51,261 nucleotides of DNA from Alphaproteobacteria bacterium. Its GTDB lineage: Bacteria; Pseudomonadota; Alphaproteobacteria; UBA8366; GCA-2717185. Positions within the stretch are counted from its first letter, which is position 1, and every line of letters starts with the position of its first letter. Shown here one piece after another: positions 29,426 to 45,928 of the stretch. Location: positions 1 to 51,261 of the forward strand of contig JAPKDL010000012.1 in assembly GCA_028822585.1 (NCBI GenBank). The letters run 5' to 3'. Under the pieces are notes generated by a model, which ran no database searches, was not told the origin of the DNA, and saw nothing but the letters and a program-made list of their open reading frames with translations. A program made the position numbers and the translations under genes.

Positions 29426-31516
29426 ATGAGCTGGCGAATTGGCGTCGATATCGGTGGGACTTTTACCGATGTGGCCTTGGTCAATGAAGATAACGGGCGC
29501 ATCGGCATCGCCAAGGTCTCAACCACACCGGACGATTTCGGCGCGGGCGTGGTACAAGCGCTGTCAATTGCCCTGGACGATCATAATGTGGCGCCCGAGT
29601 CGGTAAGCCTGCTGTCACACGCGACCACGGTCGTCACTAATGCAATTTTGGAAAACAAGGGCGCGCGCATCGCCCTTGTCGCGACCCGCGGGTTTCGCGA
29701 CGTTCTGGAATTGCGCCGGTCGGCCCGCGTTGATCTCTACGACCTTTACCAGGATGCACCCGCCGTGCTGGCGCCGCGTCATTGCCGGTTGGAAGTGACC
29801 GAACGTCTAGATGCATCCGGCGCGGTGGTGACGCCATTGGATGAATCCGACATCGACCCCATTATTGAATTCGTGAAGAACAATGACATTGAAGCAGTTG
29901 CGGTGTCACTGTTGTATTCCTTTCTGAATGACGCGCATGAACGCATTGTCGGAGACCGCTTGCGCGCCGCCTTACCGGGCGTGCCGGTTTTTCTGTCGAG
30001 CGAGGTGTTGCCGGAAATTCGCGAATATGAACGCACCAGTACGACAGCGGTGTGTGCTTATGTTGGGCCCATATTAGAATCTTATCTGCACCGCCTGGAA
30101 GAAGCAGTGAGCGGCATGGGCCTGCCTAAATTATATGTCATGGGATCTAGTGGCGGGGTTTTTGACGTGGCCGAAGGGTTGAAAATGCCCGCCATGGCGA
30201 TTGAGTCCGGCCCGGCAGCAGGCGTTATCGCGGCGCAATTGATAGGGCGGCAATTAAACAAACCCAATTTGATTTCCTTCGACATGGGCGGCACGACGGC
30301 GAAAGCCAGCCTGATCAAAGACGGCCAGGTTGAAACGACATCCGAATACGAAGTTGGCGGCGGTGACGGCAATGTGAACCGCTGGATGAACGGCGCAGGA
30401 CACCCCATCCGCGTCCCGGTCATCGATCTGGCGGAAGTCAGCGCAGGCGGCGGATCCATCGCCTGGATTGACCCGGTGGGCGCGTTGCGTGTCGGGCCGA
30501 AAAGCGCGGGGGCGGCGCCGGGCCCGGTTTGTTACGATGGTGGCGGTGTTGACCCCACCGTGACCGACGCCAATCTGACACTGGGGTATCTTGACCCTGG
30601 CGCGTTGTTGGCGGGCCGGTTGGCGATCCGCGCGGACAAGGCCGAAGCCGCAATAACCGAACGCCTCGCCGGACCCTTGAAACTCGATGTCGACGCCACG
30701 GCGGCGGCGGTAGTGAGCATCGTCAACAACGCCATGGCCGAAGCGCTCCGCATTGTATCGGTGGAACGCGGCCATGATGCGCGGGAGTTCAGTCTTGTCG
30801 CATTCGGCGGCGCTGGACCCATGCACGCGGCGGAACTGGCCAGCGAACTTGGCGTGCGCGAAATTATCATCCCACCTATCCCTGGCGGCTTTTCCGCGTT
30901 GGGGTTGGTCGCGACGGATTTGAAACGCGACTATGTGAAGACGTTCTACGCGCCGCTGACGGGCATCGACCCGGCGGATATCAACGCGGTGTATCAAGGC
31001 ATGGAAGAGTCCGCGCGCGATATGCTGCGCGCTACCGATATTCCCGAATCCCGCTGGGTGTTCGAACGCGCCGCCGATTTACGCTACTTGCGCCAAGCCT
31101 ATGAATTGACAGTGCCCGCTCCGGCTGATGCCGTGACGCCCGAAACATTGGACGCGCTGGCCAATGGGTTTCATGAGAAACATCGCCAAACCTATGGCCA
31201 TGAAAACCGCAATGAGATCGTGCAAATGGTCAATCTGCGGCTGACCGCCATCGGTCGTCTGGAAGGTCTTGACCTGCGCCAGACCAGTGCAACAGGCGGC
31301 GGGTCGTCAATGACGGGGTCTCGCAAGGTCTGGTTCAAGGGGGCGAGCCGCATCGATTGCGCCATTCACGACCGCGATAAAATGAACGCGGGTGCCGAGG
31401 CACCAGGTCCTGCTGTTATCCAAGCCGTGGATACGACCATCGTCGTGCCGCCCGGTTGGACGGCACGCGCCGACGACAACGGATATATTATCATGGAGGC
31501 CAGTGATGGATGCTAA
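29426..31516 (+). CDS. hyuA: Hydantoinase A/oxoprolinase family protein, second copy
   Basis: 696 residues, same family as the gene at 20665 but clearly diverged. Markers are GVDIGGTFTDVALVN, HATTVVTNAILENKGARIALV, LPEIREYERTSTTAVCAYVGP, ESGPAAGVIAAQLIG, FDMGGTTAKASLIKDG, SAGGGSIAWID and FGGAGPMHAAELA. In place of the TSTDV of the first copy it has TTAKAS, as in the hydantoin-utilisation HyuA subgroup, so the two pairs probably act on different compounds. AGGAGGAGGG precedes the start. It overlaps hyuB by 11 bases. Confidence 0.88.
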   Translation: MSWRIGVDIGGTFTDVALVNEDNGRIGIAKVSTTPDDFGAGVVQALSIALDDHNVAPESVSLLSHATTVVTNAILENKGARIALVATRGFRDVLELRRSARVDLYDLYQDAPAVLAPRHCRLEVTERLDASGAVVTPLDESDIDPIIEFVKNNDIEAVAVSLLYSFLNDAHERIVGDRLRAALPGVPVFLSSEVLPEIREYERTSTTAVCAYVGPILESYLHRLEEAVSGMGLPKLYVMGSSGGVFDVAEGLKMPAMAIESGPAAGVIAAQLIGRQLNKPNLISFDMGGTTAKASLIKDGQVETTSEYEVGGGDGNVNRWMNGAGHPIRVPVIDLAEVSAGGGSIAWIDPVGALRVGPKSAGAAPGPVCYDGGGVDPTVTDANLTLGYLDPGALLAGRLAIRADKAEAAITERLAGPLKLDVDATAAAVVSIVNNAMAEALRIVSVERGHDAREFSLVAFGGAGPMHAAELASELGVREIIIPPIPGGFSALGLVATDLKRDYVKTFYAPLTGIDPADINAVYQGMEESARDMLRATDIPESRWVFERAADLRYLRQAYELTVPAPADAVTPETLDALANGFHEKHRQTYGHENRNEIVQMVNLRLTAIGRLEGLDLRQTSATGGGSSMTGSRKVWFKGASRIDCAIHDRDKMNAGAEAPGPAVIQAVDTTIVVPPGWTARADDNGYIIMEASDGC

Positions 31517-33239
31517 CGTCAAAACCGACCCGGCGACGTTCGAGGTGGTCAAGAACAGCCTGTATGCGGCGGCGGAAGAAATGAAGGTCGTGCTGGCGAA
31601 AACCGCCTATTCACCGATCCTGAAATCGGCGGGTGATTATTCCTGCGGGGTTTTCGACGTGTCCGGAAACATGGTCGCCCAAGGCCCCGATCTGCCGATC
31701 CATCTGGGCTCCATGCCCGATGCGGTCAAAGCGGTCGTCCAATCCGTAGAGGCGATGGCGGAAGATTTCCAGCCCGGCGATATTTTCATCCATAACGATC
31801 CATATTTTGGCGGATCGCATTTGCCGGACGTCAATGTCGTGTCGCCCGCGTTCCGCGAAGGCCGTCTGTTGGGCTTCGCTTGCGTCCGCGCCCATTGGCC
31901 CGATATTGGCAGCGCTACGCCGGGCAGTTATGGCGCGGTGACGGAAATCTTCGGCGAAGGATTGCGCTTGCCGCCAGTGCGATTGTATTCAGCAGGCAAG
32001 TTGAACCGGGATGTAGACGCCATCATCTTTTGCAATGTGCGCACACCTGACGAACGGCGCGGCGACCTGAACGCCCAAATCGCTGCCAACCGGCGCGGCA
32101 GTGAACGGCTGTCGGAATTGGCGGGTAAGTATGGTGCTGATGTTCTCTTGCGCATCATGGGCGAGGTCATGGATTATTCCGACGCAATGATGCGCGCGTT
32201 ATTACGTGACTTGCCCGACGGTGAGGGGTCGTTCGAAGATTTCTGCGATGGTGACGGCATTCTGGAACCCGGCGCCACCGAAGATGAAACTTTCACCGTT
32301 TGCATGAAGGTAAAAAAATTCGGTGACGCGCTGGTCGTTGATTTCACGGGTTCGGACCCCCAGGTTGCAGGACCGATGAATGCGCCGTTATCGGTGACGG
32401 CGTCGGGCGTCTTCACCTCGGTCAAGATGGCCGTCGACCCCACCGGCATGATCCCGCCGAACTCCGGGTGTTGGCGGTCCGTCACCGTAATTGCGCCCGA
32501 AGGGTCGGTCGTAAACGCGACGTTTCCCGCCCCTGTCGTTTACGCCAACCATGAAATGTCGCACCGCATCTCTGACATGATGTTTGGCGCCTTGGCGGCT
32601 TTCATGCCGGACCGGGTCATGGCGTGCTCGCAAGGCACGTCGGCGATCTTGACGTTAGGCGGCGTCGATTACCGCACCGGCGGGCGATATGTCAGTTACG
32701 AGACAATCAAGGGCGGCTTTGGTGCGCGGCCCACCAAGGATGGTATAAACTGCGTCGCCAGCGGTATTTCAAACACCATGAACACGCCGATTGAAGTGCT
32801 GGAGATGAGCTTTCCCGTTCGCGTCGAATATTATGAAATTATTGCTGACAGCGGGGGTGCTGGAAAATACCGAGGCGGCTGCGCAGCGCGGCGCGCTTGG
32901 CGCATATTAGGCAACGACGCACAGGCGGCGGTGTGTTGCGAGCGCACAAAATCGCCGCCGTTCGGATTGGACGGGGGCAAGGCCGGAACACCGATGCGCA
33001 TTCACCTGGAAACCCCGGATGGCGCCCGCCGTGAATTAATCAGCAAAGGCGGGTTCACCGCGCCCGCCGATTCACGCGTATTGTTTGAAGTGCCGGGGTC
33101 CGGTGGATATGGTGCGCCCGAGGAGCGGGACCCCGTCAGTTTGCGCAACGACTTGCGCAACGGATATGTCAGCCTGAACGCCGCGCGCCGATATTACGGC
33201 GTTACCGACCCACAAGCATTGCTAGACGGCGACGATTAA
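31506..33239 (+). CDS. hyuB: Hydantoinase B/oxoprolinase family protein, second copy
   Basis: 577 residues. Family segments are AYSPILKSAGDYSCGVFDVSG, GPDLPIHLGSMPDAVK, GDIFIHNDPYFGGSHLPDVNVV, RTPDERRGDLNAQIAANRRG, VDFTGSDPQVAGPMNAPLSVT and DSGGAGKYRGGCAARRAWRIL. ATG 31506 is chosen because GGAGG lies at 31495-31499 and it overlaps hyuA; an in-frame start at 31392 would bury 114 more bases in hyuA. It has about 30 more residues than the first copy at its C-terminus (RNDLRNGYVSLNAARRYYGV), a tail often seen in this subgroup. The shared repeat element begins 27 bases after its stop. Confidence 0.88.
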   Translation: MDANVKTDPATFEVVKNSLYAAAEEMKVVLAKTAYSPILKSAGDYSCGVFDVSGNMVAQGPDLPIHLGSMPDAVKAVVQSVEAMAEDFQPGDIFIHNDPYFGGSHLPDVNVVSPAFREGRLLGFACVRAHWPDIGSATPGSYGAVTEIFGEGLRLPPVRLYSAGKLNRDVDAIIFCNVRTPDERRGDLNAQIAANRRGSERLSELAGKYGADVLLRIMGEVMDYSDAMMRALLRDLPDGEGSFEDFCDGDGILEPGATEDETFTVCMKVKKFGDALVVDFTGSDPQVAGPMNAPLSVTASGVFTSVKMAVDPTGMIPPNSGCWRSVTVIAPEGSVVNATFPAPVVYANHEMSHRISDMMFGALAAFMPDRVMACSQGTSAILTLGGVDYRTGGRYVSYETIKGGFGARPTKDGINCVASGISNTMNTPIEVLEMSFPVRVEYYEIIADSGGAGKYRGGCAARRAWRILGNDAQAAVCCERTKSPPFGLDGGKAGTPMRIHLETPDGARRELISKGGFTAPADSRVLFEVPGSGGYGAPEERDPVSLRNDLRNGYVSLNAARRYYGVTDPQALLDGDD

Positions 33240-33265
33240 CAGTACAAGATACGTCAAACTAATTA

Positions 33266-33379
33266 GTGATCTGATCGAAACGCTTGGTTCTCAAGCCTTT
33301 CGTGAATCAGACCACAAACTTATTTATCTGCGGGGCAACTGATCAAGACGGATGGGAACCATCCGCTTCGGTTGCACCA
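33266..33379 (+). repeat. Copy A of a 115-bp leader element shared with the dsbA leader
   Basis: Closely similar over its whole length (roughly four bases in five by eye) to 45181-45296 on the reverse strand. It contains two CTGATC-R-A-A/R-ACG direct repeats about 68 bases apart and a nested hairpin at 33332-33378: GGGGCAAC (33332-33339) with GTTGCACC (33371-33378) outside, CGGATGG (33349-33355) with CCATCCG (33359-33365) inside. It ends 16 bases before the ATG of the Gfo/Idh gene, immediately 5' of the sequence TTTGGAGA that contains its Shine-Dalgarno. Either a leader RNA regulator or a mobile/dispersed intergenic repeat. Confidence 0.8.
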
Positions 33380-33394
33380 TTTGGAGAGAATCTT

Positions 33395-34459
33395 ATGAGC
33401 GAAGACACGATTCGAATTGGCCTGATCGGCGCGGGTGCCAACACCCGCGACCGGCACATTCCAGGCTTCTTGAAGCAAGCGAATATTGAAATTGCGTCTG
33501 TCGCCAACCGCAGTATCGAATCAGGCCAACAAGTCGCCGACAAATTCAATATCCCCAAAGTCGCTGTGGACTGGATGGAGCTCCTCGACGATGATTCCAT
33601 CGACGCCGTGTGTATCGGCACCTGGCCGTATATGCACGCTGCCCTGACGATCGCCGCGCTGGAATCTGGCAAGCATGTCATGTGTGAAGCGCGCATGGCG
33701 ATGAACGTGGATGAAGCGCGTGAAATGTTGATGGTGTCCCGTCTCCATCCGGAATTGGTCGCGCAAATCGTTCCGGCGCCCCATACGTTGAGCGTTGACC
33801 AGACCATCGTGGAAATGATCGGCGGTGGTTACATTGGCGATGTGATTTCGATGGATGCGCGCGTCACGCCGGGCGCCAACTTTCCCAACCCCGACTCGCC
33901 CGTCCATTGGCGTCATATTCGGGATTTCTCCGGCAATAACATCATGGGCATGGGTATCTGGTACGAAGCGATGATGCGGTGGGTCGGTCCCGCCGCCAGT
34001 GTGAACGCGGTTGGGCAAAGTATTGTATCGCACAGGGTGGACACCGATGGGCGTCGCGTCCCGATGTCCATTCCCGACCACGTGGATATCGTGGGTCGGT
34101 TGGAACAAGGCGGACAGATGCGGTTCTGCTTTTCCAGCGTCGCGGGCCATGCGCCGAACACGGCGGAGGTTTATATCTTTGGCACAGAAGGCACATTGTA
34201 CCTGCAACAGGATAAATCCGGCGCGTTCTCCCTGTCTGCGGGCAAGCGGGGCGATGACGGATTAAGTCCGGTCGAGATCGACTCGGCGAAAAGCGGCGCC
34301 TGGCGGGTGGAAGAAGAATTCATCAACGCCATCCGCGGCAAGGAGGAAATCACCCACACGGATTTCCAGACCGGGGTTAAATACATGGAATGGACGGATT
34401 CCGTCGCGCTTTCGATCCGTCATCGCAAGGCGATCAACCTGCCGCTTACGGAGGGTTGA
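33395..34459 (+). CDS. Gfo/Idh/MocA family oxidoreductase
   Basis: 354 residues. The NAD(P)-binding Rossmann start reads RIGLIGAGANTRDRHIPGFLKQ, and the family EK/EAxx-like motif appears as HVMCEARMAMNVDEAREML; the C-terminal two-thirds is the alpha/beta substrate domain with DVISMDARVTPGANFPNPDSPVHWR. The usual EKP lysine is replaced (CEARMA), so catalysis may differ from standard dehydrogenases. ATG 33395 follows GGAGAG (33383-33388) and lies just after the copy-A leader element; an in-frame start at 33284 would translate the repeat. A strong terminator follows, so this closes the hyuAB operon or forms its own unit. Confidence 0.83.
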   Translation: MSEDTIRIGLIGAGANTRDRHIPGFLKQANIEIASVANRSIESGQQVADKFNIPKVAVDWMELLDDDSIDAVCIGTWPYMHAALTIAALESGKHVMCEARMAMNVDEAREMLMVSRLHPELVAQIVPAPHTLSVDQTIVEMIGGGYIGDVISMDARVTPGANFPNPDSPVHWRHIRDFSGNNIMGMGIWYEAMMRWVGPAASVNAVGQSIVSHRVDTDGRRVPMSIPDHVDIVGRLEQGGQMRFCFSSVAGHAPNTAEVYIFGTEGTLYLQQDKSGAFSLSAGKRGDDGLSPVEIDSAKSGAWRVEEEFINAIRGKEEITHTDFQTGVKYMEWTDSVALSIRHRKAINLPLTEG

Positions 34460-44543: not shown

Positions 44544-45158
44544 TTATTGTGAGACCTCCAGAATCGCCTTATCGAAGGCCTCTAATGGCATCGCGCCTTC
44601 AACGCGTGTTTGACCTTTCGGTCCGTTGATGATGAAGGTCGGCGTCGAGGAAACTTCAAATTTCTTTGAGCCAACAAGTCGACTTTCAATAATACCATCG
44701 ATAATAGCTTCATCGCTTAGACAAGCCTGATAATCCGATTCGCTCAATCCGCCAAGCTTTCCAATTCGCGCCAGGGCTTTTTGAGTGTCGGGCGCGACGC
44801 CCCAATTGGGTTGTTGCTGAAACAAAACGTCCAGAAAACTGAAATATCGTTTGGGGTTCCCGCACCGGGCCAGAACCGACGCCAGCAACGCCGTCTTATC
44901 GAACGGAAAGTCGCGAAAGACCAGGCGGGCCCTGCCTGTGTCGATGTATTTCTTCTTTAAAAGGGGTAGGATTTCGGTGTGAAAGACGCGGCAATGTGGG
45001 CAGGTCATCGAAGAATAGTCGATAATTTCGATGGGCGCCTTGGGATCACCCATAATCCTGTCCTTCAACGCATCCGCGCTGCTGGGCGGCGCTGCAAGGG
45101 CGGCGTTCGCGCCGGTTAGGGCAAATAATGTAATAAGTATCGAAATCAGTCGCGCCAA
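44544..45158 (-). CDS. DsbA-family thiol:disulfide oxidoreductase, exported
   Basis: 204 residues from a TTG start. The signal peptide is ARLISILITLFALTGANAALA, cleaved before APP, so periplasmic. The thioredoxin-fold active site CPHC is C53-C56 (in SSMTCPHCRVFH), and the cis-proline loop is VSSTPTFIING. It forms or isomerises disulfides in exported proteins. TTG 45158 is chosen because GGAG lies five bases before it and it begins exactly at a proper signal peptide; a longer frame from 45260 would place 34 residues encoded by the copy-B repeat before the signal, which is implausible. smc follows after 31 bases. Confidence 0.85.
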   Translation of the reverse strand: MARLISILITLFALTGANAALAAPPSSADALKDRIMGDPKAPIEIIDYSSMTCPHCRVFHTEILPLLKKKYIDTGRARLVFRDFPFDKTALLASVLARCGNPKRYFSFLDVLFQQQPNWGVAPDTQKALARIGKLGGLSESDYQACLSDEAIIDGIIESRLVGSKKFEVSSTPTFIINGPKGQTRVEGAMPLEAFDKAILEVSQ

Positions 45159-45180
45159 TTTTGTCTCCAATCCAAACCAG

Positions 45181-45296
45181 TGGTGCAACCGAAACGGATG
45201 GTGCCCATCCGTTTTGATCAGTTGCCCCACCAAATCAATAACATGGTGGTCGTGATTCACGAAATGCCCGGGAACCTAGCGTTTTGATCAGACCAC
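45181..45296 (-). repeat. Copy B of the 115-bp leader element, upstream of dsbA
   Basis: Reverse-strand match to 33266-33379, with a two-base insertion in the middle. The inner stem is longer here: AAACGGATGG pairs with CCATCCGTTT (45192-45214), ten base pairs around a GCA loop; the outer pair is GGGGCAAC with GTTGCACC (45228-45221 and 45189-45182). It ends 22 bases before the TTG of dsbA, just 5' of its ribosome binding site. A further TTGATCAG lies upstream near 45350 and may be related. Confidence 0.8.
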
Positions 45297-45361
45297 GAGG
45301 AACGCCAAAAGAATCATGTGAGTATATGAGGGTGAATGTGGACTGATCAAGGCGGTCGCGA

Positions 45362-45928
45362 TCACCTGCGTGTCGCGGCGGCGCTGCGGGCCATGATAGC
45401 GCGACCAATGCGGCCCAGCGAGGCGCGAAGTTCCGGATCGTCGACAATGGCGAGAAGGGCGTCCAATTCCGCGGCGCTTTGCGAATCCAGAGGCGGCAAT
45501 TCAGAATCTTTCGGCTCAGCCGCGCGTTCGCTACGGCCCGATAAAGGCGCGTGAATCAGGCGAAGTTTGGCGACCGCCCGGTATCCAAAATGCCCGTTAA
45601 TTCGCTCCAGCACCAAGGGTTCGAGATGCTGTAATTCCGTGGCAGCGCCGCCATAGACGCGGATATGCAAGGTGCCGCCGCTGCGTTCGCGCGGTGGATG
45701 CGCCAGCCGTTCGGGTTGGCAGGACGCGGCGAGCTCTGGCCCCACGATTCGCACCCAATCCGTGATCAAGCCGCCTTCAGCCAAACCGCGTTTGCCTAGC
45801 GTTTTTTTGGTGATGTCCGGAATATTTGCCGATAATGGTCTCGGTGCGCCACCGCGCTTGAATGGTTTGGACGCGCCGCCGCGCTTGAACGCTGAATTTT
45901 TTTGATCTTTCCGGTCATTTGCAGACAT
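45362..45928 (-). CDS. DUF721 (DciA-like) protein
   Basis: 188 residues. The DUF721 core is ITDWVRIVGPELAASCQPERL (55-75) and GTLHIRVYGGAATELQHLEPLVLERINGHFGYRAVAKLRLIH, matching DciA-type proteins that load the replicative helicase in bacteria without DnaC. The N-terminus has a short basic repeat, FKRGGASKPFKRGGAPRP, and the C-terminus an extension (LDALLAIVDDPELRASLGRIGRA) found in alphaproteobacterial members. No strong Shine-Dalgarno. Divergent from mutY with 54 bases between starts. Its position before dsbA-smc is conserved in the group. Confidence 0.82.
   Translation of the reverse strand: MSANDRKDQKNSAFKRGGASKPFKRGGAPRPLSANIPDITKKTLGKRGLAEGGLITDWVRIVGPELAASCQPERLAHPPRERSGGTLHIRVYGGAATELQHLEPLVLERINGHFGYRAVAKLRLIHAPLSGRSERAAEPKDSELPPLDSQSAAELDALLAIVDDPELRASLGRIGRAIMARSAAATRR

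Follow-up and report, generated by a model that had tools for sequence, protein, structure and literature searches.

A MITE-like mobile repeat with two hairpins as the probable source of two similar leaders in an alphaproteobacterial genome

Two similar stretches that lie just 5′ of the Shine-Dalgarno sequences of two genes in the window (the whole stretch of 51,261 nucleotides analysed here) are almost certainly decayed, lineage-specific insertions of a MITE-like, REPIN-shaped, non-autonomous mobile repeat with two hairpin units and no gene. The repeat is ordinary in kind, and its family appears to be undescribed. In the proposed mechanism a transposase made elsewhere would recognise inverted ends of about 26 bp and insert the element at CTAG or CTAG-like (CNNG) sites, and any effect on the host mRNAs as a 5′ UTR hairpin would be a by-product.

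Results

The repeat and its two copies in the window

The first-pass annotation had reported that bases 33266-33379 (forward strand) and 45181-45296 (reverse strand) align along their full length with about four bases in five the same. With one copy used as query against the whole genome the two stretches were indeed alignable end to end in these orientations (85% identity, E 2.5e-27), and the true limits of both copies fall a few bases beyond these positions. Including the flanking 4-mers, copy 1 occupies 33263..33383 on the forward strand (left TTAG, right TTTG) and copy 2 occupies 45177..45299 on the reverse strand (left CTCG, right CTGG). Copy 1 lies between a hydantoinase B/oxoprolinase gene (31506..33239, forward), which also neighbours the empty site of the congeners, and a Gfo/Idh/MocA oxidoreductase gene (33395..34459, forward; PF01408, E 1.5e-21), the ATG of which is 11 nt from the end of the copy. 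Upstream of copy 2 is a DciA-like gene (45362..45928, reverse) and downstream, about 18 nt away from its end, is the TTG start of a gene for an exported DsbA-like thioredoxin (44544..45158, reverse; PF13462, E 4.1e-34), so that the domain matches agree with the identities first given to both downstream genes. It may be noted that the longest open reading frame of the DsbA gene (44544-45260, reverse) reaches back into the repeat, to a GTG at 45260. More probably, translation begins with the TTG at 45158, which aligns with the ATG of the orthologue in a congener (G002, locus L238), and automatic annotation may wrongly lengthen this gene into the repeat. A search of copy 1 for promoter and terminator patterns found none.

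At full length the element measures about 122 bp, is non-coding and has sharp ends (CTAGTGGT...ACCACTAG) in the aligned copies. Its terminal 26 bases show an inverted match at 20 of 26 positions, which makes them imperfect inverted ends that read GTGGTCTGATCGAAACGCTTGGTTCC and GTGGTGCAACCGAAACGGATGGTTCC over some 26 bp, or GTGGTCTGATCGAAAC and GTTTCGGTTGCACCAC in short form. The element is built of two hairpin units, A and B, which in copy 1 fold at 33266..33315 (GTGATCTGATCGAAACGCTTGG...CAAGCCTTTCGTGAATCAGACCAC, forward) and 33331..33379 (CGGGGCAACTGATCAAGACGGATGG...CCATCCGCTTCGGTTGCACCA, forward) respectively. Each window copy gives a two-hairpin fold (fold z -5.4 and -3.8), and the two CTGATC..ACG direct repeats earlier seen inside each copy are real, there being one in the 5′ arm of each hairpin. 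Shorter forms with the same ends were found in the congener G001 (about 86, 78 and 53 bp), as was one tandem form, and two loci (L179 and L188) carry single-hairpin forms.

Distribution and age of the family

For the following counts G000 denotes the window's own genome, G001 and G002 its congeners and G021 a genome of another family; matching loci make it probable that G001 is the Rhodospirillaceae MAG SI074_bin63. The search of the genome and its relatives that had been proposed at first pass shows that the element common to the two genes is real, but that it is not a pair: it belongs to a family of dozens of copies. Either window copy as query matched 29-31 places in the own genome and a scan with the left end gave 38 places, for a total of about 40 copies, whole or in part. 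In G001 we found at least 38 near full-length copies that are 89-97% like the consensus. The mean pairwise identity is 93% among 12 sampled G001 copies as opposed to 77% among 11 own-genome copies; the former are young and the latter decayed, so that the family has undergone a burst in one lineage and is fading in the other. Three pieces occur in G002, a member of the same genus, and five weak ones in G021; of the 43 genomes of the order that were searched, the remaining 39 lack the repeat. On scanning 84,980 species genomes for exact 22-mers, matches were obtained only in SI074_bin63 and in two alphaproteobacterial MAGs, JAAFHH and RDXE. The elements of these two (L139/L214 in JAAFHH; L148/L213 and L217 in RDXE) have CTAG ends and a nearly identical hairpin A, whereas their hairpin B is unrelated, and the family is therefore mosaic. 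A plasmid collection searched with the repeat gave no real match, and none of three short matches in viral contigs extended into the repeat. Also, in the right flank of one full copy (L146) there is an adjoining divergent two-hairpin relative (TCCTGATCGAGAAATTC...CATCACACTAG), perhaps of another subfamily.

Empty sites at orthologous loci

When the flanks of copy 1 were joined and searched in G001, an unbroken match was obtained that runs from the hydantoinase gene to the Gfo/Idh gene, and in G002 the two genes are likewise neighbours with no element between them. As the orthologous site is empty in both congeners, copy 1 is an insertion. The Gfo/Idh orthologues of the congeners have their own Shine-Dalgarno sequence a few bases before the ATG. 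The site of copy 2 is apparently empty in G002, and four further own-genome copies (L002, L007, L008 and L026) have empty sites in G001. Conversely, the loci orthologous to two G001 copies (L125 and L109) are unoccupied in the own genome, where one CTAG stands at the equivalent position of the locus matching L125.

Target sequence and position next to genes

The alternative offered at first pass, that the element is mobile and inserts beside start codons, was right as to mobility (dozens of copies, empty sites, both orientations) and wrong as to the target, which is CTAG. This 4-mer is strongly avoided in the window, with 29 occurrences where base composition would predict about 190. On dividing these by the genes predicted with our own codon-usage gene finder, 9 were found in the 4.1 kb outside genes and 20 in the 47.2 kb inside them, a roughly fivefold higher density outside. 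The copies adjoin both starts and stops on account of the rarity of CTAG within genes and of its overlap with TAG stops and with TAGGAG Shine-Dalgarno sequences: many adjoin the end of a gene exactly through the CTAG/TAG stop overlap, and behind several comes GAG or GGAG, about twelve bases 5′ of an ATG. Adjacency to start codons hence follows from the target, in either orientation. Of 30 young G001 copies, 5 are sense-upstream, 9 are antisense-upstream, 8 lie between divergently and 4 between convergently oriented genes, the rest being undetermined. In the own genome 15 are sense-upstream and 4 antisense-upstream, with 8 between divergently and 6 between convergently oriented genes; this 15:4 excess of sense copies is weak (uncorrected p about 0.02, automatic gene calls) and is absent in G001.

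Flanking 4-mers and candidate transposing enzymes

C and G are the most constant letters of the flanking 4-mers. In 23 of 57 aligned copies from G000 and G001 there is CTAG at both ends, and among the changes in these 57 copies 24 are left-only as against 1 right-only, so that the right CTAG is conserved and the left 4-mer is variable. In three young copies the 4-mers of the two sides are identical but are not CTAG (CCGG, CCTG and CTGG), the changes being confined to the central two bases, and such pairs point to target duplication. There is no simple transposition model that explains both the conserved right and variable left 4-mers and the three identical pairs.

As a single kind of enzyme, we tentatively favour an IS630/Tc1-like DDE transposase that would duplicate the central TA of CTAG, a choice that falls somewhat short of an even chance. 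It draws on the CTAG preference of IS630, on the inverted ends and on the three identical non-CTAG pairs; IS630 prefers the TA within 5′-CTAG-3′, to go by the title of Tenzen and Ohtsubo (1991) as listed in PMC2170065. The left-only excess (24 vs 1) runs against a symmetric target duplication. All 58 left-end matches in G001 belong to miniature copies, of full or reduced length, or to decayed pieces, and none is an autonomous element with the ends of the repeat, G001 being a fragmented MAG of a kind from which multi-copy insertion sequences are easily lost. In the same fragmented assembly the IS630 transposase domain (PF13358) is absent, and in the own genome it was found as two fragments only, whose flanks on reading lack the ends of the repeat. 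Two decayed IS630-like remnants of the own genome (L158:1500-1770 and L159:1400-1650) have a common end, TTATACCAACGAACATTAATTAGA, that is unrelated to the repeat. A search of the literature on bacterial MITEs with a CTAG target gave none of this kind and one useful paper, on an IS630-family element.

The next most likely enzyme, which we consider unlikely though a serious contender, is a Y1 (HUH) tyrosine transposase of the RAYT or IS200/IS605 kind that would move a REPIN/BIME-like repeat as single-stranded DNA, the left CNNG being the target and the right CTAG a part of the element. In its favour, REPINs too occur as two-hairpin doublets and in single-hairpin forms (PMC3116915), and the flanking 4-mer is conserved as CTAG on the right and variable on the left. 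G001, which has the young copies, carries a Y1 transposase gene, as does G021; none was found in G000, which has the decayed ones. Against this, the tag is CTAG and not GTAG, the ends of the element are inverted repeats, the identical non-CTAG 4-mers at both ends of three young copies suggest target duplication, and the repeats on either side of the Y1 gene in G001 are others than this element. The loci of 2.8-3.3 kb read around the Y1 genes of G001 and G021 hold no copy of the repeat. The repeats flanking the G001 gene, which is RAYT-like (L161:1100-1950), are of a different sequence (AATTAAAGGGACACAGTACTTATTT).

It is improbable, if less so than the leader and duplication readings below, that the mechanism is an unusual or unrecognised one in which the right CTAG is carried and the left CNNG is chosen and sometimes duplicated, which would place the family in a class between MITEs and REPINs. 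If so, it would be a class of mobile repeats that occurs in several alphaproteobacterial lineages with the second hairpin exchanged.

Alternative readings: leader RNA or duplication of the region

The first-pass annotation had also put forward a family of regulatory leaders, i.e. cis-acting RNAs (for example a tandem aptamer) that control the downstream genes. The strong fold of two related hairpins would suit such a role, as would the sense orientation of both window copies just 5′ of start codons and the ratio of 15 sense-upstream to 4 antisense-upstream copies in the own genome. Yet the covariation test then suggested gave nothing beyond shuffles: with the structure written on 15 copies, 86.6% of the cells were paired as compared to 86.4% in shuffles, and 3 pairs were changed on both sides where 4.8 were expected. 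Copies that decay from a palindromic master sequence would be expected to behave in this way. Orientations are mixed in the young G001 family (5 sense, 9 antisense, 8 between divergently and 4 between convergently oriented genes), and the same genes lack the repeat in the congeners. The repeat has no match in Rfam at the gathering thresholds, only chance-level matches lying below them, in line with its not having been recognised as a known RNA family. Given the lack of covariation and the empty sites, a leader RNA no longer serves to explain the family, and we hold this hypothesis to be very improbable. An individual copy may affect its host mRNA, which is compatible with the null covariation result.

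Copy 1 differs from the family consensus at 12 positions and copy 2 at 10, each thus being about 91% like it, and only two changes from the consensus are common to both; the window copies are therefore independent insertions and not duplicates of each other. That one intergenic region of the window was segmentally duplicated, the reading to which a lack of other copies would have led, hardly deserves credence: the two copies are 12 kb apart and, at 86%, slightly more alike than other sampled pairs, but it is refuted by the copies across the genome (about 40), by the likeness of each copy to the consensus and by the near full-length copies of G001.

Discussion

The MITE-like reading of the repeat can be set against systems already described. 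The bacterial MITEs listed in PMC3733652 are RUP, NEMIS/Correia, ERIC, YPAL and Nezha. Like bacterial MITEs, the repeat is non-coding and strongly structured with inverted ends, and is dispersed between genes, adjoining starts and stops, by lineage-specific insertions. Its length of about 122 bp, with derivatives of 53-86 bp, and its lack of coding capacity agree with the size (70-300 bp) and non-coding nature of MITEs. Its ends correspond, imperfectly, to their terminal inverted repeats of 15-30 bp, and it shares with them multiple dispersed copies and polymorphic insertions. Unlike in bacterial MITEs, the flanking 4-mers are asymmetric and no parent insertion sequence was found in these fragmented MAGs. 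The ends and sequence of the repeat are not known to match any of the five MITEs named above.

With REPINs and BIMEs, which are mobilised by RAYTs (PMC3116915, PMC2817692, PMC3733652), it shares the doublet of hairpin units and the single-hairpin relatives. It differs from REPINs in having CTAG where their tag is GTAG or CGTC, in units of about 50 bp as compared to 20-40 bp, in ends that form an inverted repeat and in that no RAYT gene is flanked by it. The Rhizobium-specific intergenic mosaic elements (RIME) of Osteras et al. (1995) are reportedly an alphaproteobacterial intergenic mosaic repeat with palindromes. By this description, our repeat may be likened to RIME, as the element is cited in PMC2573895.

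What looked like a conserved leader is explained as a decayed mobile repeat, and a caution follows: two similar 5′ UTRs are insufficient for calling a riboswitch. The rarity of CTAG in genes gives a simple reason why such repeats adjoin starts and stops. To the known MITE-like families the analysis adds one from uncultured Rhodospirillaceae, in which young and old copies contrast clearly between congeners and which has mosaic relatives in two other alphaproteobacterial MAGs.
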